Positions 36,458 to 53,833 of a stretch of DNA of 64,000 nucleotides are shown piece by piece. A program made the position numbers and the translations under genes. The stretch comes from Candidatus Venteria ishoeyi (GTDB taxonomy: Bacteria > Pseudomonadota > Gammaproteobacteria > Beggiatoales > Beggiatoaceae), in contig NZ_JAUCGJ010000004.1 in assembly GCF_030378065.1 (NCBI RefSeq), forward strand, positions 62,001 through 126,000, written 5' to 3'. The notes under the pieces were generated by a model. That model was not told the DNA's origin. It saw only the letters and a program-made list of their open reading frames with translations, and did not search any database. How positions within the stretch are numbered: the stretch's first letter is position 1; every line of letters begins with the position of its first letter.

Positions 36458-37033
36458 ATGCCTTACCGAAATTTATCCTGTTCCGTTATTGTACTCACTC
36501 TCATTGCCAGTCTTTGTCTGCTCATACAATTCAATAATACTGAGTTATTTCCAATCCTGCGTTATGAACGTAACCCTATTGCTGAGGGGGAATATTGGCG
36601 TTTTTTAAGTGGGCATCTGCTGCATTTAAACTGGCTTCATCTCTTATTTAACCTGCTTGGCTTATTTTTGCTTTGGGCATTCAGGCCCGTTGGCTTTAAC
36701 TGTTATGCCTTAATCGCTTTGTTGATATTGTCCGCCTTTGGCATCAGCACCGGATTAAGCCTGTTTTCACCTCACATCAGTTGGTATGTCGGTTTGTCCG
36801 GTATTTTGCACGCTTTGTGGATGGCAATTGCCTGGCTGCAAAAAAATACCATGCTGGGCTTGGGCTTGCTGGCATTCTTAGCATTTAAGTTGCTTGGGGA
36901 ATGGTTATGGGGTGGATTAGGGATGACGGCTCAGCTTATCAGCGGCACAGTGGTGACTGATGCCCATTTGTATGGTGCCATTACGGGTTGGCTGCTTGTG
37001 CTGCTTTTTCCTGTCATCAAATCCAAACGATAG
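36458..37033 (+). CDS. rrtA: Rhombosortase (rhomboid-family intramembrane protease)
   Basis: This is a 191-residue rhomboid-family protein with about six helices. It matches rhombosortase, the protease thought to process GlyGly-CTERM proteins after type II secretion. Visible features are 'YWRFLSGHLLHLNWLHLLFN', the nucleophile Ser in 'YVGLSGILHALW' and the catalytic His in 'DAHLYGAITGW'. The next gene encodes a multiheme cytochrome ending in a GlyGly-CTERM tail, the expected substrate. Adjacent placement of protease and substrate makes the assignment strong. Confidence 0.9.
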   Translation: MPYRNLSCSVIVLTLIASLCLLIQFNNTELFPILRYERNPIAEGEYWRFLSGHLLHLNWLHLLFNLLGLFLLWAFRPVGFNCYALIALLILSAFGISTGLSLFSPHISWYVGLSGILHALWMAIAWLQKNTMLGLGLLAFLAFKLLGEWLWGGLGMTAQLISGTVVTDAHLYGAITGWLLVLLFPVIKSKR

Positions 37034-37168: not shown

Positions 37169-37223
37169 GTTGCTTAGCTCTTTAATATTTTTTTAATTGG
37201 CAAAGGGAATCGCAGGAGAAACC

Positions 37224-40058
37224 ATGATAATAAGCCATGCCCATCGACACTTACTTCACCATCTTGTTTGTTGTTGTTTCATTGTTTTCAGTTCATTAAG
37301 TTGGGCTGGAGCCTTGGATGAACCCGTTGCCCACCCTGCCATTCCTGTTCTCGATGAAAGCGGCGCTCATGTTTTAAACTCCGGTCAGCCTTACAGCCCC
37401 AAAACAACCTGTGGCACGGGCGGCTGTCATGATTATGAGCAGATCACCCATTCCTTCCATTTTGAAACCGGGCGTGATGAAGCGCGGGATGATTTTGGTG
37501 CCTTGCGTCAATTGCCGCAATTGGTTTCCCCCGGTTATTTTGGGGGTTATAACTGCATGGGTGGCAGTAATCCGGATAACCTCGCCAAAAAGAACAATGC
37601 ACAAGTCAGCGACTTTGCTGATCACGGCTCTGCGGGCTTGATTAAACGCTGTATCAGTTGCCATTCCGGTGGCGGCTGGATGGAGAAAGACCGCAATAAC
37701 CGCCGTTATGATGAAGTGAATCCTGATACGGTGAATCCTTTGGATGGAGATTATTTTAATCGCGGCACGGATGAAAATAACCAATCAGCAGACAGTTCCG
37801 TGGTCAGTCAATGGAACTGGCAAAAAAGTGGCGTGGTCGAAAACGACTGTTTTTTATGTCATTTCAAATTTGATGACTTAAAAGTCTTTGATGATCAAGT
37901 ATCTGCGGATACATCGGGTTATGATCATTTCCGCAGCGTACGCGGCACTGATTTAGCCAAAAAAGGTTTTTTCCGTTATGTGGATAGCGCTATTCTCGAA
38001 GTCATGAACTTAAACCATCCCGATGGTGTCACCAGCGATAAATCGCTGCTTAATTTCAGCCGCACTGATGGTCATTTGAATCTGGATGACAATGGCAACC
38101 CACTGTTAAACTGGAATCCCGATGCCTTTGATGAAAATGGCAAGGTGGTGATTCCCATGTTGCGTTATCCAAATAATGACAACTGCATGATGTGTCACCG
38201 TACCAGTAATTCCCGCCGGGGTTTTTATGGTTTTGGCGAAGATACGGCGATGGAAGCCGATGCTGAAGGGATCATTGAGGAAGATTATCAGGATGATGTG
38301 CATTATGGCAAAGTCTGGACGGAAACCAACGGTGAATCCCGCGCCATTGAAAATTGTAACAGTTGCCACTCTGGAACCTATTTCAAACCAAGTTACAGCA
38401 ATGTGGATTTGGACAGTCCCCATCAGTTTTTGAAGGGGAATTCAGATATGGACGTGCGTAATGATCTGGATTTCAATCCTGCGCCCAAGAGCTGTGAATA
38501 TTGTCACGAAACCTCACCGAATCGCGCCATTCCTTCCGGGCATGACACTATGTTAGATGCGCATAGAGAACGCTGGAAAGCCAGCAGTGATTTACAGGGT
38601 TATACCGCAGGCAGTCTGGATCGTATTACCCAGACTCATCTGGATGTAATTTCCTGTCAGGCCTGTCATATTACAAATAAAAAATCTCGGGGCCGACCCT
38701 TGCAGATTCTGTATCGCTATCGTCGCGGCGAAGATAACAAACTTAAAATTATTCCTTATAACCCGCGCCTGCGTTATTACTGGAAAGACAAAACCAGCGG
38801 TTATGTAATGAACCAAACCGAACGCAACCGCGCTTTCCGCCTGGAAACCGATGCCGATGGCAACAAATACGGTGCTTTGATCAATCCGGTGAGTGGCGAG
38901 CAACTCGGCACAGTAGGGGCGCGCATGTCTCATGGTAGCTGGCGTTTCAGCGATCCCGCTGATTACAATAGCTTTAAGGCATTGAAACAGGCTTATGACA
39001 GCGTATTGGCTGAAAAGGGGTTGGCTAACCCCGATGCCGTTATGGTGTGGACAGAATCCAATTATTACATCATGTCGCACAATACCCGGCTGGCGGTTGA
39101 TTCGTTACAGTGTGAACAATGTCATGAACGCAAACAAAACGGTTCTTTCAGCGCTCTGGTTTCAGAACAAGGCGTATTAGGCAAAGAAAATATCAAACAG
39201 GTCACAACCCTGCCAGATAAACGTTTGGTGGATGAGGGGCTGGTTATTTTTGATAAACCTTATATGCAGGTTGATGACAGCGGCGTGGTAACGGAAAATA
39301 TTGCAGATATTTTGTATGACAGCAAAATCAATCCTTCCATGTCTATTCTCAACGCGGAACAAGCCAGGGTGATGACGGGTTCCATGCACAAATATGCTTT
39401 GGATAATGCTGCTAACCAGGCGCAATTGGGTGCTTACAGCAGTCGCCTGGGCGAGCAAATCTTCACCCCGCAAGCTTATGTCTTTAAGGGCGATTATGGG
39501 GACGATGCACTACGCCATCTGGCGCTGTTGCTGGAAGCCAATTCCGCCACCGATGCCATTTTCTCCACCGCTCAAATTCAGGCAAGTCTGGCAAGCAATG
39601 AGCAGTTCAATCGCGCCCAGAATGCGGGTTTTGGTGGTTTGATCAGCAGCGTCATCAACTTGCAAGCGGCTTATGATAACGGTCAAAACATGAGTCAGTT
39701 GACCACGGGTGGTCAAATGTTGCTTAAACTGCCTTATTACAGCGATATTACCGATGAAAGCAAGATTAAATTGATTCACAGTGATAATGGTAATGACTGG
39801 AATGATTTGAATGCCAAACTGGTTTTTGTTCAAGCTCAAACTGATGGTGAAACAGGCTTTGCCCTGTTCCTGACCGAACACTTCGGCTATTTCAGCGTTG
39901 CCAGTCAGAATGCCAGTGCCCAGCCTGTGGCAGTGGATACGGATTCCAGCACAGAAACCACCAGCAGTGGCGGTGGGGGCGGTGGCTCCGTGTTCTTATT
40001 GCCAATTCTGTTATTGCTGGGATGGCGCTTTCGTGGGCGGTTATCAGTAAGTAAATAG
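37224..40058 (+). CDS. Octaheme c-type cytochrome with GlyGly-CTERM tail
   Basis: I chose the ATG at 37224, which follows a good AGGAG site, giving 944 residues. A Sec signal peptide (about 1-30) ends near 'SLSWAGA'. Eight heme motifs are visible: one CX4CH ('CGTGGCH') and seven CXXCH (CISCH, CFLCH, CMMCH, CNSCH, CEYCH, CQACH, CEQCH), all in the first ~640 residues. The last ~300 residues lack hemes. The C-terminus is a run of six glycines, a hydrophobic helix ('SVFLLPILLLLGW') and basic residues: the GlyGly-CTERM signal. Such proteins go out by type II secretion and are cleaved by rhombosortase, encoded just upstream. A surface-exposed terminal electron-transfer protein is likely; the substrate is unknown. 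Confidence 0.9.
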   Translation: MIISHAHRHLLHHLVCCCFIVFSSLSWAGALDEPVAHPAIPVLDESGAHVLNSGQPYSPKTTCGTGGCHDYEQITHSFHFETGRDEARDDFGALRQLPQLVSPGYFGGYNCMGGSNPDNLAKKNNAQVSDFADHGSAGLIKRCISCHSGGGWMEKDRNNRRYDEVNPDTVNPLDGDYFNRGTDENNQSADSSVVSQWNWQKSGVVENDCFLCHFKFDDLKVFDDQVSADTSGYDHFRSVRGTDLAKKGFFRYVDSAILEVMNLNHPDGVTSDKSLLNFSRTDGHLNLDDNGNPLLNWNPDAFDENGKVVIPMLRYPNNDNCMMCHRTSNSRRGFYGFGEDTAMEADAEGIIEEDYQDDVHYGKVWTETNGESRAIENCNSCHSGTYFKPSYSNVDLDSPHQFLKGNSDMDVRNDLDFNPAPKSCEYCHETSPNRAIPSGHDTMLDAHRERWKASSDLQGYTAGSLDRITQTHLDVISCQACHITNKKSRGRPLQILYRYRRGEDNKLKIIPYNPRLRYYWKDKTSGYVMNQTERNRAFRLETDADGNKYGALINPVSGEQLGTVGARMSHGSWRFSDPADYNSFKALKQAYDSVLAEKGLANPDAVMVWTESNYYIMSHNTRLAVDSLQCEQCHERKQNGSFSALVSEQGVLGKENIKQVTTLPDKRLVDEGLVIFDKPYMQVDDSGVVTENIADILYDSKINPSMSILNAEQARVMTGSMHKYALDNAANQAQLGAYSSRLGEQIFTPQAYVFKGDYGDDALRHLALLLEANSATDAIFSTAQIQASLASNEQFNRAQNAGFGGLISSVINLQAAYDNGQNMSQLTTGGQMLLKLPYYSDITDESKIKLIHSDNGNDWNDLNAKLVFVQAQTDGETGFALFLTEHFGYFSVASQNASAQPVAVDTDSSTETTSSGGGGGGSVFLLPILLLLGWRFRGRLSVSK

Positions 40059-40265: not shown

Positions 40266-41207
40266 ATGACAGAAAACACAAATATAGCAACCATAGATTT
40301 TTATGGGCAACCAATATCGACAGTCAAGAAAGATGGTGCTGAATATGTTGCTATGCGCCAGATTGTTGAGGGAATAGGGCTTAACTGGGCTTCTCAGTCT
40401 GTCAAGTTACGGAATAATCAGGAGAAATTTAGGTGTTGCGATATCGCAACCCCTTCAAAAGGTGGGCTTCAACCATCTTTATGTCTTCCTCTGAAAAAGC
40501 TAAATGGATATCTATTCTCAATAAACCCCGACAAAGTCAAGTCAGAAATAAAAACAAAAGTAATCTTGTACCAAGAAGAATGCTTTACTGCACTACACGA
40601 CTACTTTAATTATGGATACAGTCTAAATAACAAACTACTAGAAACGGATCAAGAGAAACGTGACAAATTATCTGCCGATCTTCGTAAACTACGTGTTTCC
40701 GATGTAGATTTATATCGAAAATTGACAGATGCAATATCAGCAACATGCGTAGACTATAAATCCAAGGACAGGAAAGAGCTTGGAAAGTTCTTTTCAAAAC
40801 TACAAGATAGCTTCCACTTCGCAGTTTCTGGCTACACAGCGGCAGAGCTTGTGTTTCACAATGTTGATTGCAATGAGTCAAATGCAGGAATGAAATCATA
40901 CGCTGGAGACTCGAATCACATTACACAGGCAGATGTAAAGGTCGGTAAAAATTACCTGGATGAGAAAGCATTCAGAAGGTTCGATATACTTTATGACCAA
41001 TTGCTGTCATTCGTTGAGATGAAAGTCATTAATGGTGAAGAAATGACACTTGATAAATGGTATCACCAGCTAACCTCCGTGATAATGTCAAATGGTCTTA
41101 ACCCATTCCCGGGGTATCAGTCGAACATAAAAAGAAATTCAGCAAATCTTAAAGCATTTGATGAGCTGAAAAAATTCAAGCAGTTGCAACTATCCAAAAA
41201 GGTCTAA
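40266..41207 (+). CDS. P22_AR_N antirepressor domain fused to RhuM-like domain
   Basis: This 313-residue protein has a phage antirepressor N-terminal domain in residues 1-125 ('IDFYGQPISTVKKDG', 'YVAMRQIVEGIGLNW', 'LFSINPDKVKSE'). The C-terminal half resembles RhuM 'virulence' proteins ('FFSKLQDSFHFAVSGYTAAE', 'YLDEKAFRRFDILYD'). RhuM proteins are frequent cargo of mobile elements; their function is poorly known. The stop codon lies inside an integron attC-like site, so this looks like a gene cassette. Codon use appears more AT-rich than in the flanking cytochrome genes. Confidence 0.8.
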   Translation: MTENTNIATIDFYGQPISTVKKDGAEYVAMRQIVEGIGLNWASQSVKLRNNQEKFRCCDIATPSKGGLQPSLCLPLKKLNGYLFSINPDKVKSEIKTKVILYQEECFTALHDYFNYGYSLNNKLLETDQEKRDKLSADLRKLRVSDVDLYRKLTDAISATCVDYKSKDRKELGKFFSKLQDSFHFAVSGYTAAELVFHNVDCNESNAGMKSYAGDSNHITQADVKVGKNYLDEKAFRRFDILYDQLLSFVEMKVINGEEMTLDKWYHQLTSVIMSNGLNPFPGYQSNIKRNSANLKAFDELKKFKQLQLSKKV

Positions 41208-41263
41208 CAATCAAATCCAGCGGACACGCAAAAAGTGCACGCCGCTGAATTCGGGCGTTACAC
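41202..41263 (+). mobile_element. Integron attC recombination site
   Basis: The R''-type box GTCTAAC (41202-41208) includes the stop codon of the RhuM gene. The arm AATCCAGCGG (41214-41223) pairs with CCGCTGAATT (41242-41251), 9 of 10 bases. The site closes with GGGCGTTACAC (41253-41263). Arrangement, size and position right after a gene fit attC. The R' box GTTACAC departs from GTTRRRY by one base. No integrase gene is in the window. Confidence 0.7.
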
Positions 41264-41316
41264 GGCAAAACTAGTATGCACAATCTCATGGATTCTAAAA
41301 AAGGGATTAATTTAGA

Positions 41317-42369
41317 ATGAAAGATAGCTTTAAGTTTGACAATGACTATGACGAAGAGTTTGTACTTTCTTCGGAAGATGCATTTTCAAAAATAACATCA
41401 TATTCAATTTCATATAGCATCTGGACTCTAATAGATCTAATTCAGCACCAAGAGTTAGAATTGGAGCCAGAGTTCCAAAGGAATTTTGTTTGGGACAAAC
41501 GAATGGCTAGTCTATTTATTGATTCATTACTTATTGGTTTTCCTACACCAAATCTATTTTTTGGTAGAAATTCATCGAGAGAAGATTTTATTGTAATTGA
41601 TGGCTTACAACGTCTTAAAACTATATATTTTTTTATTACCGAACAATTCTCAACAGGCGAAGGATTTCGACTTGTTGAGCTTGATGGACGGTCATGGGAT
41701 GGATGTAGCTTTAGTGAACTTCCTCTAAATTTACAGCGAAGGCTAAAAAATTCTGTTCAAAATGCAACTGTTATTGACGATATTGATTTCAACCCAGATA
41801 TTGTTCATGAGCTTTTCTATAGAATTAATACCGGTGGCATTCCACTGACTAATCAAGAGGTCAGAAATTGTGTGTATATTGGTGAGTTTAATCGGACTCT
41901 CCACTATGTAAATACTTATCCAGCTTGGAGACGGTTGTTGGGGACATCTCAGCCCCATGCTCGATTAGCTGACATTGAACTTGTTTTACGAATCATGTCT
42001 TTAATCGATGCTCATGAACAGTATCGTCCCCCAATGCATAGATTCCTCAGTAGATTTCAATCTGAACATCGGGACAATACAATGAGCGAGTACGCTTCAT
42101 TATTTGAAAAAGTTTCTGATCTTCTCACAATAGACATAGATGGTACTCCCTTTAAAAATAAAGGAGTTGTAAAGCGAAATTTACTTGAGACAGTATTCGT
42201 AGCTTTGGGGGTATGCGTAAGGAATAATTATAGAGTTGGTGACGTTAAATCTGGAATAGAACAATTCTCTCAGGTTATTGAGGAGAATAGAAATTTACGA
42301 ACAGCAACTACTTCAACTGCTGTAATACGAGAAAGAATTCAATTAGCTCTTGATATCTTCAGGGAGTAA
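41317..42369 (+). CDS. DUF262 (GmrS/ParB-like) domain protein
   Basis: This 350-residue protein has an N-terminal DUF262 domain: 'LEPEFQRNFVWDKRMASLFI', 'SLLIGFPTPNLFFGRN' and 'FIVIDGLQRLKTI' (residues about 92-103). The last corresponds to the nucleotide-binding DGQQR motif with Leu replacing one Gln. DUF262 occurs in GmrSD-type restriction proteins, but here no DUF1524 nuclease half is present. The next gene, two bases after the stop, encodes a HEPN protein, so the pair likely works together, perhaps with HEPN as effector. It lies between two attC-like sites. Defence function is inference. Confidence 0.75.
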   Translation: MKDSFKFDNDYDEEFVLSSEDAFSKITSYSISYSIWTLIDLIQHQELELEPEFQRNFVWDKRMASLFIDSLLIGFPTPNLFFGRNSSREDFIVIDGLQRLKTIYFFITEQFSTGEGFRLVELDGRSWDGCSFSELPLNLQRRLKNSVQNATVIDDIDFNPDIVHELFYRINTGGIPLTNQEVRNCVYIGEFNRTLHYVNTYPAWRRLLGTSQPHARLADIELVLRIMSLIDAHEQYRPPMHRFLSRFQSEHRDNTMSEYASLFEKVSDLLTIDIDGTPFKNKGVVKRNLLETVFVALGVCVRNNYRVGDVKSGIEQFSQVIEENRNLRTATTSTAVIRERIQLALDIFRE

Positions 42370-42371
42370 AA

Positions 42372-42920
42372 ATGAATTTTAACTCACCTGAAATCCAAAC
42401 TTTAAAAAGTAATTTGGATGGTAGTATTAGTTCAGCGGTTCAGCATCAGCCTAATTCATACGCAGCTATAAAGGTTCAAGCTCTGCTAGATATAACCGTA
42501 TATGTAATGGCTTGCAGGTTTCTAGAGGCTTCGGTAAAACATATTGTATACAACTGTATGGTTATGAGAGGAGCAAGTCAGCAAGATTTAGATGACTTAT
42601 CAAGTCGGCTAAAGAGATTTAATAACCCTGAATTTACGAATATTAAGCAGTTGGTAGAGGACGAGCTTGGGTATGATATATCAAGTAATCTTAATACTGG
42701 TTATTTACCAAGAGACATTACATTCTTAAATGAAATTTGTAAAAACAGGCATCGAAATGTTCATGCAAACGAAGATCCAAGAGATTGGTACAATACGAAT
42801 CGAAAGACAATGGATAACTTCAATCAAGAGTATCAAGGTTTGCTAAATATTATAAAATATCTTGATGGTTTAGTATTTGATGACACAACAAATACATATA
42901 TTCTGAATATAGCCGTGTAA
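42372..42920 (+). CDS. HEPN domain protein with Rx4H motif
   Basis: This 182-residue all-helical protein is of the HEPN type (RiboL-PSP/MAE_28990-like). The putative RNase motif Rx4H is R126-x4-H131 in 'NRHRNVHAN', near the start of a late helix, as in active HEPN ribonucleases. The start codon lies two bases after the DUF262 stop, with a purine-rich RBS (GGGAG) inside that gene's end, so the two are coupled. HEPN proteins often act as RNA-cleaving toxins in defence or toxin-antitoxin systems. The stop codon lies in an attC-like dyad. Family call is good; activity is inferred. Confidence 0.75.
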   Translation: MNFNSPEIQTLKSNLDGSISSAVQHQPNSYAAIKVQALLDITVYVMACRFLEASVKHIVYNCMVMRGASQQDLDDLSSRLKRFNNPEFTNIKQLVEDELGYDISSNLNTGYLPRDITFLNEICKNRHRNVHANEDPRDWYNTNRKTMDNFNQEYQGLLNIIKYLDGLVFDDTTNTYILNIAV

Positions 42921-43018: not shown

Positions 43019-43051
43019 ACTCCCACGCAGAAGCGTAGGAGTGAGAAAAAA

Positions 43052-43114
43052 ACTGACAACTGACAACTGACAACTGACAACTGACAACTGACAACTGACA
43101 ACTGATAACTGATA
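43052..43114 (+). repeat. Nine tandem 7-bp repeats
   Basis: Seven copies of ACTGACA and two of ACTGATA run in tandem, ending 5 bases before the ATG at 43120. No Shine-Dalgarno site is visible in this stretch. Copy number could vary by slippage. Confidence 0.95.
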
Positions 43115-43119
43115 TAACC

Positions 43120-43329
43120 ATGTCTCCAAAAATAACCAAAATACTCCCCTGGGCCATAGGTGCTGGCATTGCCGGCAGTCATATCGCCTTATCCAGCAAT
43201 TGCTCTCTGCCTAAGCAGGGGGCTTGCACCGCTTGCGGCAGTTGCGTCATTGCCTTGGCAACGCTTTCAGGTTGGGCCTGGTACAAAAATCAGCAGCAGG
43301 ATAAGGAACATTTTTTTGTGGAAAAATAG
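43120..43329 (+). CDS. Small membrane protein with Cys cluster
   Basis: This 69-residue protein has a hydrophobic helix (about 8-24), a Cys-rich stretch 'CSLPKQGACTACGSC' (four Cys) and a second hydrophobic segment (about 41-55), then a charged tail. I do not recognise the family. The Cys spacing could bind a metal or Fe-S centre or form disulfides. The next gene, a beta-barrel, overlaps its end by 14 bases, so it probably belongs to the cytochrome locus. The start lies right behind a tandem repeat with no clear RBS. Confidence 0.6.
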   Translation: MSPKITKILPWAIGAGIAGSHIALSSNCSLPKQGACTACGSCVIALATLSGWAWYKNQQQDKEHFFVEK

Positions 43330-44530
43330 TGGCTGGCTGGCTGCTTTATGTCTGGTTTGTCTGCTGGAATCGGTACAGGCCGCAGGCTGGCTGGGGCATC
43401 TGGAAAGCCGGGTTCAAGCCGATAATCACTATGGTGAGCATGATCAGTTTATCCAGCATTGGGGGGAGTTCAGTTATGAACATAACGATAATCTCCAACT
43501 GGGTATTGCTGCTGCCGCCAGAGTGGGTATTGCAGGCATTGAAGGCCAGTTACAACAAGCCTGGTTGCGCAAAACCTGGCCTCATCGAAAATACAGCCTG
43601 CTGGCAGGACGCTTTGAACAAGCGGACTTGAGCGGTTTTTATGCTTTGGATGGCGCACGGCTTGAGCATCAGCGTGAGCAGTGGTCATGGCGCGCTTATG
43701 CGGGTGTGCGCCGTCAAATTGAATATTTTGTGGCACAGACAGAAAAGCCCGATGAACCAAGCCATGCTTTATTGGGGCTGGAAACTGAATATAAACATAA
43801 ACGCTTAAGTGCTAGATTGGGCTTTGAGCATCATGCCACTAATCCTTCCGGTGATTTATTTAATCTTGATATCAATCGTCAATTTGACAAGCTGCATTTA
43901 TCTACCGCAGCGAGTCTGGATGTGCATCATCACCAGATTGAGCATTTTTTGATCCGCACCCAAAGTGCGATGGATTGGGCGGAACGTCCGGTTCATTTCA
44001 CATTCAGTTATGAAACTTATCAACCCTTGAATCCTTTACTCAGTTTTCGCCAGCGTTTTTATCGCCTCTATGCCCGTGGACGACAATCCGGGTTGAGCGC
44101 GCGCGCTCAATACAAAACCCAAAAGGATGACTTGTGGCGGGTTGAAGGGCGTAAGTTGTGGCGTGATTTTGGTGACAGCGGTTATGCCGTTAGCATCGAC
44201 TGGCAATCCCACAAACCCCAACGTTGGCAAAGCCGCCTTGATTGCTTGACCCTGGCTGATGAAAAAGCCATCAATTGGTTTGTCGCCTTGGAAAAACCGT
44301 TAAGTTCTCGCCATTTGGCAACTTTCAGCAGCGTTATCCAATGGAAACACAGCCAATTACTCAAACCCAACTGGGCGACCGGGGCATCTGTGAATCTTAA
44401 ATATAAATATCAACGCGATATGTTTATTAATTTTTTTGCCGAGTATATTGCTCAAACCCAAATGGATAACCAATATCAACTGGGTATTCAAATCCAGTAT
44501 GACTTTTATGCCAAGCGGTATCGACCATGA
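43316..44530 (+). CDS. Predicted outer-membrane beta-barrel of the cytochrome locus
   Basis: I place the start at TTG 43316 (404 residues), because a signal peptide follows ('WLAALCLVCLLESVQAAG'). An upstream frame back to 43160 is open but only shadows the preceding gene. The mature protein is rich in alternating aromatic/polar strands ('YSLLAGRFEQADLSGFYALD', 'LSARLGFEHHATNP'), lacks hydrophobic helices, and ends in an aromatic strand ('QLGIQIQYDFYAKRY'). This suits a porin-like barrel. It is flanked by multiheme genes and overlaps the next by 4 bases. A sheath role like that of MtrB is plausible, though no MtrB sequence signature is seen. Confidence 0.6.
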   Translation: MWKNSGWLAALCLVCLLESVQAAGWLGHLESRVQADNHYGEHDQFIQHWGEFSYEHNDNLQLGIAAAARVGIAGIEGQLQQAWLRKTWPHRKYSLLAGRFEQADLSGFYALDGARLEHQREQWSWRAYAGVRRQIEYFVAQTEKPDEPSHALLGLETEYKHKRLSARLGFEHHATNPSGDLFNLDINRQFDKLHLSTAASLDVHHHQIEHFLIRTQSAMDWAERPVHFTFSYETYQPLNPLLSFRQRFYRLYARGRQSGLSARAQYKTQKDDLWRVEGRKLWRDFGDSGYAVSIDWQSHKPQRWQSRLDCLTLADEKAINWFVALEKPLSSRHLATFSSVIQWKHSQLLKPNWATGASVNLKYKYQRDMFINFFAEYIAQTQMDNQYQLGIQIQYDFYAKRYRP

Positions 44531-45120
44531 GAGGGTTTTACATATTAATGTTTCTGCTGCTTTTTATGAGCAATGCTTTGGCTGAAGCACAAAAAAAGGA
44601 AAAATGGTGGGAACAACGCCAGCAACGCGAGGATATTTATTATCCCCATGACAAGCACGATCAGGTGATGCAAGACCTGGGGGATTCCTGTTTGTTGTGT
44701 CACAGTTTTGCTAAAACCCAGCTCACCGATCCCAAAGCATTAAAACCATTAACCCTGATTGCCAATGAACCCCTGGCGGCGATTTGCCATGAATGCCATA
44801 AGGAAAATATTGCCGCACCCTGGGATTGCAAAACCTGTCACCCGGACAAAACCACAATCTGGCCTGAAGATCACAATATTGATTATGTTTATAACCATGC
44901 CGCAGATGCCAGGGCCGATGAAAGCGGCTGTCGTGAGTGTCATATTGAACTCAGTTTTTGCACCGACTGCCATTTTAAGTCCAGCAATCTGAGCCATCAG
45001 ATTCACCCTCTGGGTTATCTCAGTTGGCACGGACTGGATGTGCGCGGCTCGGCGTTTGCTTGCGGCAAATGTCACAGCGGTTCTTATTGCCAGCGTTGTC
45101 ACCTGGGAGGCGGACGATGA
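44527..45120 (+). CDS. Heptaheme c-type cytochrome
   Basis: This 197-residue protein has a signal peptide (about 1-19, ending 'SNALAEA'). Seven CXXCH motifs are visible: CLLCH, CHECH, CKTCH, CRECH, CTDCH, CGKCH and CQRCH, about one heme per 25 residues of mature protein. Extra His residues ('YYPHDKHDQV', 'SHQIHPLGYLSWHG') can serve as distal ligands. It is probably a periplasmic wire. The start overlaps the barrel gene (ATGA) and its stop overlaps the next cytochrome gene, so translation is coupled across three genes. Confidence 0.9.
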   Translation: MRGFYILMFLLLFMSNALAEAQKKEKWWEQRQQREDIYYPHDKHDQVMQDLGDSCLLCHSFAKTQLTDPKALKPLTLIANEPLAAICHECHKENIAAPWDCKTCHPDKTTIWPEDHNIDYVYNHAADARADESGCRECHIELSFCTDCHFKSSNLSHQIHPLGYLSWHGLDVRGSAFACGKCHSGSYCQRCHLGGGR

Positions 45121-46070
45121 GAATTTTTATTTATAGCCTCATGGCTTTTATGCTTTACGGCTGCGGCGGCGGTGAAACCGGACAAGTGCCCATTTCCACA
45201 ACGACAGGTAATCTTATTTTGCAAGCTGAGCACGGCGTTGATGGCGCGGCTTATGGCCTGAGTGATTGCGGGGCTTGTCATGCGCTCACCGTTATCCACA
45301 AACAAGCGCCACAGATACGCGGCATGGTTGCTGCCAAGGGGTTTAACAGTTGCACGGGCTGTCACGGCGACAATGGCACGGACGAACCCCGCGCCTGTTT
45401 GATTTGTCACAATGCCACTGATTTACCGCAATCGCCTCAATTATCTGGTCAATATGCCCATTTATTTCAAGATCATGGCAACCTGAGTGATGCAGATTGC
45501 GTTACTTGCCATCAAGCCTCAGATATGGATGGGGTATTTGAACCCCAGGTTGATCTTACCCACTATGCTGGTGGAAATGCCTATAACAACAGCAGTGAGT
45601 TCTGCCTGCGCTGTCATAACCGGGATAATCATCAGGCCGGATTTGAGTTTAATCAGCAGGATTATGATTCACCCTTGATCGCAATGGCAGATAATTATCA
45701 TTTTATTGATAAACACGGCTGGGTTGATGGGATTGGTCAACGCACTTACAGCGGATTAAGGCCGGGTTATACCTATCAAACCCTGGTCGCCTGCACTGAT
45801 TGCCACGCCATGCACGGCACCACCAATCAACATCTGATTATTGACCAGGCGAGCAAGGGCGCGAGCCGTTTAAGCCCTGATTTCAGTACCTACCCAGTCA
45901 GCATTCATGAGGGTAACTACGCTCAATTATGTGTGCTCTGTCACCAGATGGAAACCAGCATCGTACAGGGTGACATGGACGCGGGTAATGGCTTATCCGG
46001 GGTACATCTGGTAAATGGTGACTGCCGACCTTGCCATACTCACGGCGAAGCGGTGCAGGCGGGGTTATAG
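45117..46070 (+). CDS. Octaheme c-type cytochrome lipoprotein
   Basis: The ATG at 45117 overlaps the previous stop (317 residues). A short signal ends in a lipobox 'LYGCGGG', with Gly rather than Asp after the Cys, which favours outer-membrane sorting. Eight CXXCH motifs follow: CGACH, CTGCH, CLICH, CVTCH, CLRCH, CTDCH, CVLCH and CRPCH. Parts resemble doubled CXXCH repeats ('ACTDCHAMHGT'). It may be the outer-membrane-anchored cytochrome that docks with the barrel encoded two genes upstream. The next gene starts two bases after the stop. Confidence 0.9.
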   Translation: MRIFIYSLMAFMLYGCGGGETGQVPISTTTGNLILQAEHGVDGAAYGLSDCGACHALTVIHKQAPQIRGMVAAKGFNSCTGCHGDNGTDEPRACLICHNATDLPQSPQLSGQYAHLFQDHGNLSDADCVTCHQASDMDGVFEPQVDLTHYAGGNAYNNSSEFCLRCHNRDNHQAGFEFNQQDYDSPLIAMADNYHFIDKHGWVDGIGQRTYSGLRPGYTYQTLVACTDCHAMHGTTNQHLIIDQASKGASRLSPDFSTYPVSIHEGNYAQLCVLCHQMETSIVQGDMDAGNGLSGVHLVNGDCRPCHTHGEAVQAGL

Positions 46071-46072
46071 CG

Positions 46073-46930
46073 GTGTTGGTTTTTATAATTCTCCTCAGCT
46101 TCAGTATCAGCCCGGTCATGGCACAAGAATATAAACTGCCAGCCGTACATCATCAGGTTGCTGTGACTATTCCCGCAGACATGCAGATTCCTGAAAACTT
46201 TAAACTGGATAAAAACAAACAACTGCAATGCGCAACTTGTCATGGCATAGCGGATATTGAAAATATCCCCTTAGAAGAAATTGATCCCCAGGCAACAGAT
46301 TTTCTCAACGGTGGCCCTTATCAAAAACTGACAAATTTTTGTTATGCCTGTCATGACAAACAGGACAATCAGAAGCTGAATATCCATAAAATGCTGAATA
46401 AACAACAGCAAGTGAACCAGGATCATTGTGATTTTTGTCACCTTGAAATCCCCGATCCCGCTGAGCCACCCGGTAAAGAAGTGCTTAAATTTCGCTTGCC
46501 CAAAGCCAAGCTCTGCTGGGGTTGTCACCTCAAAACCCCGCATTTGAACGCCATAACCCACCAGCAAAAGCTGTCTGACAAAATGCTGGAACAATTACAA
46601 AAAACGCAAGACCAGCAGCAGATTCGTTTTCCTCTGGGTGAGGATAAGCAAGTGATTTGCATTACCTGCCACAACAGCCATCAATACGGGGTTTTGGATG
46701 CTGATTCGGAAGCAGGCAAACAGATTGCCAATACGGATTTGGACACAGGTATCAGTTACCAACCTCATGCCTGGAATGAAGTTTACCAGCAGGATAAACA
46801 AAAACGCCTGGAAGAAGCTGGCAGGTCGGTTCATGAATTGACTTATCAACGTTTAAGCACCGAAGTGTTACTGCGCTTAACAGCTAAGGATGGGAGCTTG
46901 TGTCGTGTCTGTCACAGTTTTAAGGACTAG
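46073..46930 (+). CDS. Hexaheme c-type cytochrome
   Basis: I chose the GTG at 46073, two bases after the upstream stop, giving 285 residues with a signal peptide ('VFIILLSFSISPVMAQ'). A TTG at 46031 is possible but lies inside the preceding gene. Six CXXCH motifs: CATCH, CYACH, CDFCH, CWGCH, CITCH and CRVCH. A charged helical stretch lies between hemes 4 and 5 and another before heme 6. It is likely a soluble periplasmic electron carrier between the inner-membrane NapH-like protein and the outer-membrane complex. The gene ends the coupled block; a hairpin follows at 46950-46977. Confidence 0.88.
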   Translation: MLVFIILLSFSISPVMAQEYKLPAVHHQVAVTIPADMQIPENFKLDKNKQLQCATCHGIADIENIPLEEIDPQATDFLNGGPYQKLTNFCYACHDKQDNQKLNIHKMLNKQQQVNQDHCDFCHLEIPDPAEPPGKEVLKFRLPKAKLCWGCHLKTPHLNAITHQQKLSDKMLEQLQKTQDQQQIRFPLGEDKQVICITCHNSHQYGVLDADSEAGKQIANTDLDTGISYQPHAWNEVYQQDKQKRLEEAGRSVHELTYQRLSTEVLLRLTAKDGSLCRVCHSFKD

Positions 46931-47092: not shown

Positions 47093-47374
47093 ATGAATAT
47101 TCACACTGTAATAGACGATCAGCTTTTTCAGCAAGCTGTCCATATAACCGGGATGACAGATAAGCGCATATTGCTGGAATATGCATTACGTTCATTGCTG
47201 CAAGTACAGCAATCTCAGGCGACTTCAAAAGCTGATTCTACAGCATCAGAAATTGATTTTTGGGAACACTTACAACACTTTCGCAGTACGGTTGATTTAT
47301 CAGAACTGGGGGATATAGATGAGATTTTTGCCAATGTACGTGACAAAGATGTGGGTAGAACGGTAGAACTATGA
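47093..47374 (+). CDS. VapB-type antitoxin
   Basis: This 93-residue protein has the N-terminal region of VapB/VagC-like antitoxins that bind DNA as ribbon-helix-helix dimers ('MNIHTVIDDQLFQQAVHITG', 'KRILLEYALRSLL'). The acidic C-terminal tail would cover the toxin. Its stop overlaps the start of the PIN-domain toxin gene by 4 bases (ATGA). The pair interrupts the cytochrome locus between the hexaheme and NapH-like genes. Likely self-regulated by the complex, as in the family. Confidence 0.8.
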   Translation: MNIHTVIDDQLFQQAVHITGMTDKRILLEYALRSLLQVQQSQATSKADSTASEIDFWEHLQHFRSTVDLSELGDIDEIFANVRDKDVGRTVEL

Positions 47375-47793
47375 CCTCATATTATTTATTAGACACTAAT
47401 ATTCTTTCAGAAGTCATTAAACCTCAGCCATCATCACCGGTGCTTGAGCGTATAAACCACTATAAAGCTGAACTGGCAACAACCAGTGTGGTTGTGCATG
47501 AACTCTTATTTGGTTGTTTACGCCTGCCGCTCGAATCTAAACGCCGTGCCAAACTCCATGATTATATCCACCGGATTGTATTAACTGGTTTACCGATTTA
47601 TCCCTATGATACGGCTGCCGCATTATGGCATTCCCAGGAACGTGCCCGCTTGACAGCACAGGGCAAAACACCACCTTTTACCGATGGACAGATTGCAGCC
47701 ATTGCTAAAGTGAATAATCTAATCTTAGTCACCCGTAATGTAAGTGACTTTGATAAATTTGAAGGTTTGACTGTGGAAAATTGGTTTGCTTGA
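47371..47793 (+). CDS. vapC: VapC-type PIN-domain toxin
   Basis: This 140-residue PIN-domain ribonuclease has the conserved acidic set: Asp in 'YYLLDTNILSE', Glu in 'VVVHELLFGC', Asp in 'FTDGQIAAIA' and a late Asp in 'TRNVSDF'. These coordinate the metal in VapC toxins, which cleave specific tRNAs or rRNA. The antitoxin gene is directly upstream and overlapping. All key residues are present, so the toxin is probably active. Confidence 0.9.
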   Translation: MTSYYLLDTNILSEVIKPQPSSPVLERINHYKAELATTSVVVHELLFGCLRLPLESKRRAKLHDYIHRIVLTGLPIYPYDTAAALWHSQERARLTAQGKTPPFTDGQIAAIAKVNNLILVTRNVSDFDKFEGLTVENWFA

Positions 47794-47867: not shown

Positions 47868-50009
47868 ATGTTTAAGAAATTACGCCAAATCCCCAACGCG
47901 CAAAAATTCCGTTATGCGCTGATAGTGTTATCTATCGGCGTATTCTTCTCCCCCTGGCTGTTTATCCCGCAACTCGTTGGCAATGACGATTTGTGCGGCC
48001 CATTGTGCCTGAGACGTTTTTATCTCTATTTCCCCGGCATGGATCTGGCAGACTTGTGGCAACACATCAGAGTGGCCTTTATCGGCGCGGGATTTCTGGG
48101 GATTATTCTTGTCAGCACCTTGTTTTTTGGGCGTATCTGGTGCAGCTATATCTGCCCGGTGGGTGGCTTGCCAGAACTGCTCAGCCGGATGCTCAATGAT
48201 CGCTGGAAAATTGAATACCGGTCTTTGCCGCAAGTCCCTATTCGCTATGGTTATTTCAGCGTTTATCTGGTGCTGTTTCCCATGCTGGGCGTCAGCGCCT
48301 GCACCCTGTGTAACTTCATGACCGTGCCGCGCATGTTTGAAGCGTTCAGTGGTGAAATTCGCGGTTTTCTCTATATTCTCTCTGCTATCGGGCTGACCAA
48401 TCTGGGCTTGTTTTTATTGCTGGGGGTTTTTGCCAGCAAAGGCCGCGCTTATTGCCAGTTTCTTTGTCCTATCGGCGCGATTGACGCGCTGGTCAATCGC
48501 GTTGCTGCCAAATTTCATTTTACCCGCCGTATCCGGGTGGAGCGCAATCGCTGCACCGGCTGTAATCAGTGCGCTAAAAATTGTATGTGTGGGGCGATTA
48601 AAATGGTGGACAAGATTGCGGTGGTGGATCAGCTTTCCTGCATGTCTTGTCATGAATGTGTGGATGTCTGTGACTGGAGTGCTATCGACTGGCGCCACAA
48701 TCCCATTGATAAAACCCCAAAACGTAAGAAAAAAGGTATAGACTTCCATCCTCAGCCCACCTGGATCAGCGTTCATAAACATACGCCGCCAAGCCGCCTG
48801 AAAATCAACTGGCAACGGGTTATATTCAGCATTATTATGCTCACAATGCTGGGCTTTATTATTATCACCGAAGCCATTGCCGCGCAACGCTACCCGGACC
48901 CGGATGGCTGCCAAACCTGCCATGCCCTGCCCAATCTAGCCTATCGGGATAAACAAGGATTATTGCGCAATGCCAGTATCGATAATGAACACTATTACGC
49001 CTCCCTGCACGGTAGCGTGCCTTGCCGTGATTGTCATCGTAAAATCACCCAATATCCCCATGACCCAAAAAATGGTGCTGTGGATTGTGGTGCCAGTTGC
49101 CATCTTGAAGAGCCTTCTGACCAAAAAGCCTATAGTCACGAGGATGTTATTAAAGAATTTCAACATTCCGCCCACGCTCAGGGCTGGAGCAAAAATCTTA
49201 CCGCTGAAAACCGCCTTGAAGAAGTCGAGCAGGAAACCAGCCCTTCCTGCCGCTGGTGTCACAATAACAGCCTTTACATTGAGCCGGATAAAATCACCCA
49301 GTTCCAGCACGCTCTGGATCACCATGACCAGGCTTGCGGTACTTGTCACCAGGGTATTGCCTGGCGGGATCGTATCGGGGGGCATATCTTGCGGCGTTTT
49401 ATCGGCGCGCGTTGGAGTAAGGCCGAAACCAATCAGGTTTGTCAAAATTGTCATGGTGACATTAAAAAAATGCAAAACCTGACCCGCAAGGATGCCCAAA
49501 CCGGTGAGGAGAAAAAACCATCAGCTGATTTCATCCATGCCAGCCAAACCTACGACATGACCTTGCACGGTCGTTTAATCGCCAAAGACAATGCAGAAGG
49601 CGCAAGCTGCAACGACTGCCACGCACCTCAAGGTTTACATCACAATCATCTGTCCGCACAAAACCACCAGTCCAGCACCCATCCAAATCAGTTAGCCACA
49701 AGCTGCGGTCAAAGCGATTGTCATGCCTATGCCAACAATCCGCTTAATGCCGGTTTTCTAAACACCAATCTCCATGATGTTAAACAACTACCGGTTGATT
49801 TCAAGCTGATTCTGAGCAAAGACGATTATTTGAACTCCAACTGGTTTATCACACTTATCATCATACTACCCGTGCTGTTATTGCTTATTATTGGCAGTTT
49901 ACTCTGGTCCATCCTTATCGGCCCCTGGGCTAAACCAAAAATCACTGCTATTGTCGGTGGCAAACGATTTTTAGATGTTATGCTAGGGAATCCCAGGTTG
50001 AAAAAATGA
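47868..50009 (+). CDS. NapH-like polyferredoxin fused to an octaheme cytochrome domain
   Basis: This is a 713-residue inner-membrane protein. The N-terminal ~215 residues have about four helices and two CX3CP motifs ('CSYICPVGG', 'CQFLCPIGAID'), as in NapH/CcoG quinol-linked proteins. Residues about 225-265 hold two 4Fe-4S clusters ('CTGCNQCAKNC', 'CMSCHECVDVC'). A helix at about 318-340 leads to a periplasmic domain with eight heme motifs: CQTCH, CRDCH, CGASCH (CX3CH), CRWCH, CGTCH, CQNCH, CNDCH and CGQSDCH (CX4CH). A final helix lies near 655-680. It may oxidise quinol and pass electrons directly to hemes. The fusion is unusual; the quinol role is inferred from NapH. Confidence 0.88.
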   Translation: MFKKLRQIPNAQKFRYALIVLSIGVFFSPWLFIPQLVGNDDLCGPLCLRRFYLYFPGMDLADLWQHIRVAFIGAGFLGIILVSTLFFGRIWCSYICPVGGLPELLSRMLNDRWKIEYRSLPQVPIRYGYFSVYLVLFPMLGVSACTLCNFMTVPRMFEAFSGEIRGFLYILSAIGLTNLGLFLLLGVFASKGRAYCQFLCPIGAIDALVNRVAAKFHFTRRIRVERNRCTGCNQCAKNCMCGAIKMVDKIAVVDQLSCMSCHECVDVCDWSAIDWRHNPIDKTPKRKKKGIDFHPQPTWISVHKHTPPSRLKINWQRVIFSIIMLTMLGFIIITEAIAAQRYPDPDGCQTCHALPNLAYRDKQGLLRNASIDNEHYYASLHGSVPCRDCHRKITQYPHDPKNGAVDCGASCHLEEPSDQKAYSHEDVIKEFQHSAHAQGWSKNLTAENRLEEVEQETSPSCRWCHNNSLYIEPDKITQFQHALDHHDQACGTCHQGIAWRDRIGGHILRRFIGARWSKAETNQVCQNCHGDIKKMQNLTRKDAQTGEEKKPSADFIHASQTYDMTLHGRLIAKDNAEGASCNDCHAPQGLHHNHLSAQNHQSSTHPNQLATSCGQSDCHAYANNPLNAGFLNTNLHDVKQLPVDFKLILSKDDYLNSNWFITLIIILPVLLLLIIGSLLWSILIGPWAKPKITAIVGGKRFLDVMLGNPRLKK

Positions 50010-51144: not shown

Positions 51145-51168
51145 GAGAAATGTGTGAGTGTAAAAGCT

Positions 51169-52428
51169 ATGAATCAAAAACATGCTGAGCTATCCCTACT
51201 CGCCATCAATTTAACCCGCCGCTGTAATCTTGCCTGCGCGCACTGTTACCTGGATGCCGATACCCTGCGCAAGCATAACCCCGATGAATTAAGCACTCAA
51301 GCCGTGTGCGATTTGCTGGATGATGTTGCCACCTTAAATCATGGCACGATGGTAGTTTTAACTGGTGGTGAGCCTTTGCTGCGGCGGGATTTGGAAGCCA
51401 TTGTAGAACATGGTACGAAACAGGAACTGGCGATTGTGCTGGGCACTAACGGTGCTTTATTAACCCGGCAACGGGCAAAAAGCCTGCAACAGGCGGGGTT
51501 GATGGGCGTGGGTATCAGCGTGGACTCGCTGAACCCGGAATACCATGATAAGTTTCGCGGACAAAACGGTACCTGGCAGCAGACCATGAGCGGCATAGAA
51601 AACTGCCGCCGCATTGGTTTGTCTTTTCAAATACATTTTTCCATCACCGATGATAATGCCGATGAACTGCCGGCGATGATTGAGTTTGCCCAGCTCAGCG
51701 GGGCGCGGGTGATGAATATCTTTTTTCTGGTTTGCACCGGACGTGGCGAGTCGTTTTCTAACATTAACCCTACCCGTTATGAGCAAAGCTTAAAACAAAT
51801 TATTCAGGCACAGGCTGATTTTCCTGATTTGATTATTCGTCCGCGCTGTGCACCACATTTTAAGCGCGTCGCCTGGCAACAAAACCCGGATAGCCCCCTG
51901 AATCAAATCAGTGGGCGTGAAGGCGATGGCTGTATTGCCGGAATTCATTACGCCAGAGTTAAAGCGGATGGCGGGGTGACGGCTTGCCCTTATATTGAAA
52001 ATGAAGTCGGGCATATTCGCCAGCAGAAATTTTCCACAATCTGGCAGCAGGCACAGGACTTCCAACAATTAAGACAGCCCAAATTAAGCGGGCGTTGTGG
52101 TGTCTGTGAATACCAGCAGCTTTGTGGCGGTTGCCGCGCCCGTCCGGTGGCGGTGGGTAAAAGCTTAATGGATGAAGATAATTTTTGTGCTTACGTGCCG
52201 CAAGGTGGCAGCATGATTCAGGCATTAAGCGACGATGCTTATAAAGTCACCTGGAGTGAGCAGGCGCACAGCCGTTTACAGCATGTGCCGAAGTTTTTAC
52301 GCAAAATGGTTAAAAAACGGGCCGAAGCGTATGTGGCAGAGCAGGGGGAAACGGAAGTAACCACTACGCATTTAAGCATTTTATCCGCACGCCGTTTTGG
52401 TGGCAAGCCGGGTAATCATGACAGTTGA
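51169..52428 (+). CDS. Radical SAM/SPASM protein (NirJ/AhbD-like) with C-terminal PCP_red-like domain
   Basis: I chose the ATG at 51169 (419 residues); a GTG at 51154 would add five. The radical SAM cluster motif is 'CNLACAHCY' (CX3CX2C), followed by 'VLTGGEPLLRRDL'. A SPASM-type Cys set lies at about 325-365 ('GRCGVCEYQQLCGGCRARP'). Resemblance is to heme-modifying NirJ/AhbC/AhbD enzymes ('NLTRRCNLACAHCYLDAD'). The last ~55 residues ('WSEQAHSRLQHVPKFLRKMV') resemble the PCP_red domain of protochlorophyllide reductases. The gene overlaps the next (a HemY-like oxidase), implying a joint role in heme or modified-tetrapyrrole synthesis. Confidence 0.8.
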   Translation: MNQKHAELSLLAINLTRRCNLACAHCYLDADTLRKHNPDELSTQAVCDLLDDVATLNHGTMVVLTGGEPLLRRDLEAIVEHGTKQELAIVLGTNGALLTRQRAKSLQQAGLMGVGISVDSLNPEYHDKFRGQNGTWQQTMSGIENCRRIGLSFQIHFSITDDNADELPAMIEFAQLSGARVMNIFFLVCTGRGESFSNINPTRYEQSLKQIIQAQADFPDLIIRPRCAPHFKRVAWQQNPDSPLNQISGREGDGCIAGIHYARVKADGGVTACPYIENEVGHIRQQKFSTIWQQAQDFQQLRQPKLSGRCGVCEYQQLCGGCRARPVAVGKSLMDEDNFCAYVPQGGSMIQALSDDAYKVTWSEQAHSRLQHVPKFLRKMVKKRAEAYVAEQGETEVTTTHLSILSARRFGGKPGNHDS

Positions 52429-53833
52429 AACGCTTATCATCGGCGCGGGTATTTCCGGTTTAAGCACTGCCTGGCAGTTGGCGCAAGCGGGTTGTTCCGT
52501 AGCAGTCTGGGAGAGTGGTGCGCGTTTAGGGGGTAAAATCGCCACAGATTATGATCCGGTATCGGGTTATACCACGGAGCAGGCCGCTTCCATGGTGCTG
52601 AATTTTCGCCCTGAAGTATCACGCTTTTTACAGGAAACGGGTCTGGAATCCTGTAAATTAATTCGCAGCCCCACCACCAAACGTTATTTAATCCATCAAG
52701 GGCAGTTGCGTGAAGTGCCGATGACTTTAAGTGGTTTACTGTTGACGCCCCTATGGTCATGGCCTGCAAAATTAAGATTGTTGCTTGAGCCTTTTATTAT
52801 GCAACAGGGCCATGCCAACGAAACGGTGGCTGAATTTGTACGCCGACGTTTAGGATCGGAAATATTGGATAAGGCGCTAGGCGCTTATATTTCCGGCACC
52901 CTGGCTTCAGACCCTGAACAGGCCAGCGCGCAGGCAATTTTGCCACGTCTGACGGCTTTGGAGCAGCGTTACGGCAGTTTAACCGCCGGGGTTTTTGCGC
53001 ATAAGGTTTTAAATAAGAAACAGGCCAGTGAAACGGAGGGATTTTCTTTTCAAGGCGGTATGAGTGCCCTGGTTGAAAAATTAGCCGTTGGCATTGCTTC
53101 AAAGATTCATTTGCAGCATAAGCTGGTGGCGGTGAGTCCTGAGCATAACGGTTGGTCGGTAGTGGCGCAAACCCCAACAGGTGAAAAATCGCTATGGGTT
53201 AGAAATCTGATTTTAACCACCCCCGCACCTGCCACTGCTCAGTTATTAAAATATTTTGATAAACCCTTATCTGAGTTGTTAACAGGGATTCAATACGCAC
53301 CTTTGTCCGTGGTTCATCTGGGGGTTAAAAAAGACAATATTAAACATGCGGTTTCAGGCACGGGTTTTTTAACCCCGCCCAAAGAAAAAACTGTGATTAA
53401 TGGCAGTATGTGGATGCATAGCTTATTTCAAAATCGTGCGCCAACAGACCATGTTTTGTTAAGTAATTATTTAGGCGGAGCCAGGCATCCCGAGGTGATA
53501 AACTGGGATAAACAACAGTGTATTGATAGCGTCACTCAAGAATTACAGGATTTATTAGGTTTATCAGGTCATGCGGCTTGGGCCAAAGTGGATCAACATG
53601 CGCAAGCCCTGCCCTTGTATCATGGTCATTACATGCAACGCCAACAACAGATTCAGCAATGTCTTAGACAACATACGGGCTTGTATTTACAGGGCAATTA
53701 TATCGGTGGCGTTTCCATCCGTGATCGCATTATCCAGGCAGAAAAACTGGCGCAAGTCATCTTGTCCAAAACAGCCTCTCATTCAGCGCAAACAGCGACC
53801 CATCATGAAACCACAATCCCCATCAACAGATGA
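52418..53833 (+). CDS. hemY: Protoporphyrinogen/coproporphyrinogen oxidase (HemY-like)
   Basis: This is a 471-residue FAD-dependent oxidase. Start ATG 52418 overlaps the radical SAM stop by 11 bases. The FAD-binding N-terminus reads 'ETLIIGAGISGLSTAWQLA' and 'WESGARLGGKIATD'; 'ISGTLASDPEQASAQAI' and the C-terminal 'GLYLQGNYIGGVSIRDRI' are typical of PPOX. HemY enzymes oxidise protoporphyrinogen IX or coproporphyrinogen III. Linked to a NirJ/AhbD-like gene and close to genes needing 37 hemes, it may supply heme for these cytochromes. Which porphyrinogen it uses is not clear from sequence. Confidence 0.85.
   Translation: MTVETLIIGAGISGLSTAWQLAQAGCSVAVWESGARLGGKIATDYDPVSGYTTEQAASMVLNFRPEVSRFLQETGLESCKLIRSPTTKRYLIHQGQLREVPMTLSGLLLTPLWSWPAKLRLLLEPFIMQQGHANETVAEFVRRRLGSEILDKALGAYISGTLASDPEQASAQAILPRLTALEQRYGSLTAGVFAHKVLNKKQASETEGFSFQGGMSALVEKLAVGIASKIHLQHKLVAVSPEHNGWSVVAQTPTGEKSLWVRNLILTTPAPATAQLLKYFDKPLSELLTGIQYAPLSVVHLGVKKDNIKHAVSGTGFLTPPKEKTVINGSMWMHSLFQNRAPTDHVLLSNYLGGARHPEVINWDKQQCIDSVTQELQDLLGLSGHAAWAKVDQHAQALPLYHGHYMQRQQQIQQCLRQHTGLYLQGNYIGGVSIRDRIIQAEKLAQVILSKTASHSAQTATHHETTIPINR

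Follow-up and report, generated by a model that had tools for sequence, protein, structure and literature searches.

The NapH protein of W. succinogenes has been described as a membrane module that oxidises menaquinol (PMC5928378), and NapH-like modules often carry a fused FMN domain (PMC8238504). Methylococcus capsulatus generates anodic current and reduces Fe(III) (PMC6281684). Its MCA0424 operon, which contains a beta-barrel gene, is repressed by copper and rises upon copper starvation, and two of the products, MCA0424 and MCA0426, were detected on the cell surface (PMC4831470).

We have analysed a 64,000-nucleotide stretch of the Candidatus Venteria ishoeyi genome (the whole stretch is referred to as the window) which carries a cluster of six genes, A to F. 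From the gene order in the Texas strain of M. capsulatus (L072) we infer that this cluster is the counterpart of the MCA0424-MCA0433 operon of strain Bath. The order of the multiheme and barrel genes is the same, whereas NapH and the octaheme cytochrome are separate genes in M. capsulatus, by this order MCA0430 and MCA0431, and the NapH gene is absent from the main-text discussion of the operon (PMC4831470). In the window the two are joined in gene F. As argued below, the F protein probably forms the inner-membrane end of a porin-cytochrome conduit of six components and links it to quinone.

Gene F and its product

The features of the locus are collected in the table. Gene F is free of stops over 713 aa in a single frame. 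Its membrane part has all the marks of the NapH-like superfamily: Fer4_5 is matched twice (6e-17; 61.8 bits against a Pfam cut-off of 22), and the two CX3CP motifs together with the eight 4Fe-4S cysteines account for 12 cysteines, all of which are invariant in the alignment of the F family. The heme sites begin at aa 348, 386, 407, 461, 490, 525, 581 and 613, six of them being CX2CH, one CX3CH (site 3) and one CX4CH (site 8). Counting CXXCH alone yields seven, CMSCH being part of the second 4Fe-4S motif. The frame, the Pfam matches and the motifs thus bear out the preliminary description, which had proposed a NapH-like module with two 4Fe-4S clusters and eight hemes, two of them at non-canonical sites. 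The domain-architecture search suggested there recovered both Fer4_5 copies in the membrane part; the octaheme part by itself produced only weak generic multiheme matches in profile searches.

The heme sites were compared in 60 F homologues and eight standalone octaheme cytochromes (ca. 25-30% identity), and all eight sites are kept throughout. Seven further histidines are invariant across all compared proteins and two more are invariant inside the F family. There are therefore enough distal histidines for every heme, as expected of bis-His electron-transfer hemes. The CX3CH and CX4CH spacings are routinely counted among heme sites (PMC5566968, PMC10734462). A search of the genome revealed one CcmF/NrfE-family protein, one CcmC and one CcsB-like protein, and no dedicated heme lyase for the odd sites. 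Since the CX3CH site is present in 68 of 68 proteins, the CX4CH site swaps with CX2CH and there is a single CcmF/NrfE-type protein, nothing indicates a special lyase, and the earlier idea that maturation may need one finds no support.

Structures were modelled with AlphaFold2, without cofactors. The model of the whole protein was poor (pLDDT 60, pTM 0.40), and a fold search with it retrieved only ferredoxin pieces, at E 0.29 or worse. The model of the octaheme domain was fair (pLDDT 78, pTM 0.70), and no similar fold was found for it among solved structures. Scanning around F for promoters and terminators gave signals no better than those of shuffled sequence, and a search of plasmids with F returned only distant matches of the NosR/yccM type.

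Two features of the protein are new here. One is a set of four additional invariant cysteines in the membrane module, C43, C47, C145 and C148. Canonical NapH/NosH proteins of a class-wide sample and the NapH of the genome itself contain 12 cysteines (13 in two cases), those of the CX3CP and 4Fe-4S motifs, and none of the 28 canonical full-length sequences in the comparison has a cysteine at any of the four positions. With the CX3CP and 4Fe-4S motifs on the cytoplasmic side and the octaheme domain in the periplasm, the predicted topology places these cysteines on the periplasmic face, where they may be ligands of a metal or Fe-S centre or pair up in disulfides.

The other is a signal-peptidase-like site retained at the junction of the two halves. 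In lineages with separate genes, a fifth helix (..NWARVIN..) closes NapH and the octaheme protein opens with a signal peptide. In fused proteins a single helix (..NWQRV..TEAIA) does duty for both segments. The putative -1 position of the signal-peptidase site, six residues ahead of a conserved DxDG, carries Ala in 19 of the 20 fused proteins and 39 of the 40 split ones, and position -3 is V, A, L or I in every fused protein, while the residues between and after them are variable. Such a pattern fits a selected cleavage site, and the fused protein may be cut at the junction into the two proteins of the split lineages, so that the mature products would possibly be the same; the Ala at the helix end may instead be a mere structural preference. 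A precedent for a cleaved fusion is the cytochrome b-c1 precursor of Bradyrhizobium.

Table. Features of gene F and of the surrounding cluster (window positions; aa numbering refers to the F protein)
Feature	Position	Strand	Basis or comment
Rhombosortase, directly upstream of gene A	36458..37033	+	TIGR03902, 127 bits (cut-off 84)
Gene A, large surface multiheme cytochrome, 7 CXXCH + CX4CH, GlyGly-CTERM-like tail	37221..40058	+	Start not firm: at 37197 or slightly downstream
Block inserted between A and B: P22_AR_N/RhuM ORF, GmrSD_N (DUF262-type) ORF, small unassigned ORF	40266..42920	+	No match in relatives
Gene B, predicted outer-membrane beta-barrel, without Pfam match	43160..44530	+	Same place in relatives; MCA0427 by order
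Gene C, 7-heme cytochrome with signal peptide	44527..45120	+	7 CXXCH in 35/36 loci
Gene D, 8-heme cytochrome, probable lipoprotein (LYGC lipobox)	45117..46070	+	Relatives compared
Gene E, 6-heme periplasmic cytochrome	46031..46930	+	6 CXXCH in 37 loci
VapB/VapC-like toxin-antitoxin pair between E and F, outside the conduit	47093..47793	+	No match in relatives
Gene F, NapH-like polyferredoxin + octaheme cytochrome c, 713 aa	47868..50009	+	Intact frame, Fer4_5 x2, homologues
NapH-like membrane module, aa 1-300, four predicted TM helices, two 4Fe-4S motifs	47868..48767	+	Fer4_5; helices in low-confidence model
Extra invariant cysteines C43 + C47, TM1-TM2 loop, predicted periplasmic	47994..48008	+	57/57 in family
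CX3CP motif 1, CSYICP, aa 92-97, predicted cytoplasmic side	48141..48158	+	Invariant, 58/58
Extra invariant cysteines C145 + C148, predicted periplasmic end of TM3	48300..48311	+	58/58 in family
CX3CP motif 2, CQFLCP, aa 196-201	48453..48470	+	Invariant, 59/59
4Fe-4S motif 1, C229-C239 (aa 229-239)	48552..48584	+	Pfam match, alignment
4Fe-4S motif 2, C258-C268 (aa 258-268), includes false CXXCH (CMSCH)	48639..48671	+	Pfam match, alignment
TM5 / internal signal-peptide-like helix, aa 314-338, ends AIA (A338); possible signal-peptidase site 338/339	48807..48881	+	Conservation of -1 Ala
Octaheme domain, aa 339-640, eight conserved heme sites + further invariant His	48882..49787	+	Alignment; model pLDDT 78, pTM 0.70
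CX3CH heme site 3, CGASCH, aa 407	49086..49103	+	68/68 homologues
CX4CH heme site 8, CGQSDCH, aa 613	49704..49724	+	CX4CH 57/65, CX2CH 8/65
C-terminal TM helix, anchors octaheme domain	49836..49919	+	Hydropathy maxKD 3.06; helix in octaheme model

The A-F cluster and its fused and split forms

The preliminary description missed the cluster: judged by gene content and order, F ends a conserved set of genes that probably encode a porin-cytochrome conduit. The order A-B-C-D-E-F is kept in about 30 long loci of Methylococcales, Chromatiales and relatives, F always being last, and the five upstream genes A-E are its only conserved neighbours in the window and in relatives. Heme numbers are near-constant across loci (7 in C, 8 in D, 6 in E and 8 in F). 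Of the features expected of a porin-cytochrome cluster, the multihemes are conserved and surface sorting of A is supported, the rhombosortase beside gene A fitting the GlyGly-CTERM-like tail of its product. The barrel nature of B and its place in the outer membrane are predicted from its position and from MCA0427, its counterpart by order, which has been called a beta-barrel (PMC4831470).

The tail on A and the lipobox on D occur in the lineage with fused F (L023-L031, L039, L075) and not in Methylococcales; surface anchoring of A and D seemingly changed together with the fusion state. The genes between A and B lie outside the conduit and are a possible defence or mobile insert; a tandem array of nine AACTGAC copies (43051-43112) adjoins this insertion ahead of gene B. 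Further downstream, at 51154-53833, are genes for a radical SAM/SPASM protein near NirJ2/AhbD with a C-terminal PCP_red domain and for a protoporphyrinogen oxidase; the pair is possibly heme-related and is not kept beside F in relatives.

A scan of 84,980 species genomes yielded 55 loci. The fused gene is present at 69-70% identity in four genomes of the same family and in 15 more loci in other records; in all, the fused form occurs in 20 loci, one of them broken by an in-frame stop. In the same-family genome G041 (L012/L018), the F homologue contains in-frame TAA stops and is either a decayed gene or the product of assembly errors. The split form, with NapH and octaheme as adjoining genes, was found in 37-40 Methylococcales-type loci, including that of M. 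capsulatus (Texas). Among 398 genomes sampled evenly across the phylum, no further F appeared at E 1e-40, so that the gene is rare overall. A maximum-likelihood tree of 57 sequences parts fused from split proteins by one branch (support 100/99). By this tree, one change between the two states suffices, be it a fusion or a fission.

The two objections raised with the preliminary description can be answered from these data. An assembly error joining two genes is ruled out by the independent presence of the fused gene in 20 loci, and no characterised name under which the protein might be widespread, or indeed any name for it, was found in the open-access literature. Its central statement, that a single protein joins roles kept on separate proteins in NapGH/NapC systems, holds for the gene, which is one intact frame. 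The fusion is dispensable, since Methylococcales loci have separate adjacent genes, and because of the signal-peptidase-like site the mature form may be two proteins.

Proposed role and alternatives

Together, the composition of F and its place in the cluster suggest the following scheme. The CX3CP/4Fe-4S part of the NapH-like module would exchange electrons with the quinone pool and so link the conduit to respiration. Electrons would then cross to the periplasmic octaheme domain, held by the junction helix and the C-terminal helix, and from there pass to the 6-heme (E) and 7-heme (C) cytochromes, reaching the surface cytochrome (A) by way of the barrel (B) and the 8-heme lipoprotein (D). The menaquinol oxidation described for W. 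succinogenes NapH, the cell-surface location of MCA0424 and MCA0426 and the current and Fe(III) reduction of M. capsulatus speak for this scheme. Standalone octahemes with the same eight sites adjoin a b561-type cytochrome b, and in several of these loci an E-like cytochrome is also present. That the same octaheme is paired with either a NapH-type or a b-type membrane partner supports exchange with the quinone pool. The standalone clusters, found in other Gammaproteobacteria (L079, L080, L081, L083), additionally encode a triheme membrane protein, an NHL protein and 18-24-heme cytochromes, and seemingly represent a different electron conduit.

Several observations speak against F being a conduit terminal. 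It scores far below the NapH family cut-offs (73.5 bits against 213 for TIGR02163 and 66 against 234 for PRK09477), the true NapH of the same genome reaching 346 and 420 bits with these models. The M. capsulatus cytochrome that has been knocked out, MCA0421, is outside this operon. Moreover, the predicted barrel B matches no family and the octaheme model resembles no solved fold.

If the cluster is a conduit, it could also run inwards, as proposed for Fe(II)- and sulfur-oxidisers, with reduced compounds or minerals being oxidised outside and F reducing quinone. The window genome contains dsrA, and the organism may therefore be a sulfur oxidiser, but dsrA does not fix the direction of the electrons. 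Characterised NapH proteins are quinol oxidases and the M. capsulatus current is anodic, which makes this direction unlikely and outward flow the favoured one. (A pmoA model found no match in the window organism, and neither did a control model, so this search says little about methanotrophy.) We consider somewhat less likely still that the conduit serves metal acquisition, reducing Cu(II) or Fe(III) outside the cell so that they can be taken up, with F as the source of quinol electrons. The M. capsulatus operon is switched on under copper starvation and has a predicted FUR box, and the region around it responds to copper and includes TonB-family genes (PMC4831470). However, 37 hemes (with the CX3CH and CX4CH sites counted) are a costly outlay for uptake, anodic current and Fe(III) reduction indicate electron disposal (PMC6281684), and in the window and its relatives the genes A-F have no conserved neighbours but one another. 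Least of all do we expect the octaheme domain to be an enzyme of its own, a reductase fed by the NapH module. It shares the number of hemes with octaheme reductases, and a profile of NrfA-type nitrite reductase matches it weakly (E 0.0018), yet it matches no reductase family, all eight motifs end in His and none in Lys, the invariant non-motif histidines suffice as the distal ligand of each heme, and the domain is always found within a conduit cluster.

Within the conduit reading, a more specific and rather doubtful proposal can be put forward from the residue patterns. F would be a polyprotein that signal peptidase splits behind A338, giving a NapH of five helices and an octaheme with its anchor, which form the same complex as in split lineages. 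C43, C47, C145 and C148 would hold an extra periplasmic metal or Fe-S centre, lacking in canonical NapH, that connects the membrane module with the octaheme with no NapG between them.

Comparison with known systems

F resembles NapH of NapGH/NapC systems in its module of four helices, which has two CX3CP motifs and two 4Fe-4S motifs and would feed periplasmic carriers. It differs in having an octaheme domain in place of NapG/NapC, four extra cysteines on the periplasmic side, a fifth helix and no nitrate reductase: napA, napB and napG are absent beside F in the cluster and its relatives, and the nap genes of the window genome, which also holds a true napGHBC set, lie elsewhere. The NapH-NapG fusion polyferredoxin of the deltaproteobacterium MLMS-1 likewise leads through a fifth TM helix to a periplasmic domain with several cofactors, which there is a Tat-dependent NapG with 4Fe-4S clusters and in F an octaheme cytochrome c (PMC5449189). 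In NosR/PceC and flavinylated NapH-like systems, too, the module is linked to an extracytoplasmic redox domain, but this is an N-terminal FMN domain instead of C-terminal hemes (PMC8238504, PMC5928378); no FMN-binding family was matched by F in Pfam.

ImcH, too, is a multiheme protein on the quinone side that has TM helices and a single CX3CH site. Its description gives three N-terminal TM helices, a CX3CH adjoining the membrane domain, seven heme sites in Geobacter and no 4Fe-4S part (PMC6295460). Judged by that description, F, with CX3CH as the third site at aa 407 and a NapH-like membrane part, is not an ImcH. Nor is F a CbcL, MtoC or MtrH, which require a b-type diheme membrane domain; its membrane domain is NapH-like and matches no cytochrome b. 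An ANME-2c genome contains NapH followed by an 8-heme cytochrome, which have been likened to quinol:cytochrome c oxidoreductase clusters; as described, this pair is archaeal, unfused and outside any porin cluster (PMC9012536).

At the level of the whole cluster, PCC3 and PCC4 also combine a barrel, multihemes and an inner-membrane redox protein. In them the latter is a five-helix putative diheme cytochrome b with HX13H (PMC5566968), no counterpart of which is present among A-F, where a polyferredoxin-octaheme takes this place. If the proposed role is true, a polyferredoxin-octaheme linked to this conserved conduit would add another type, giving current-making methane-oxidising bacteria such as M. 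capsulatus a testable gene pair for the inner-membrane route. The four extra cysteines would offer a concrete site for mutation in asking how electrons leave the NapH membrane module on the periplasmic side.
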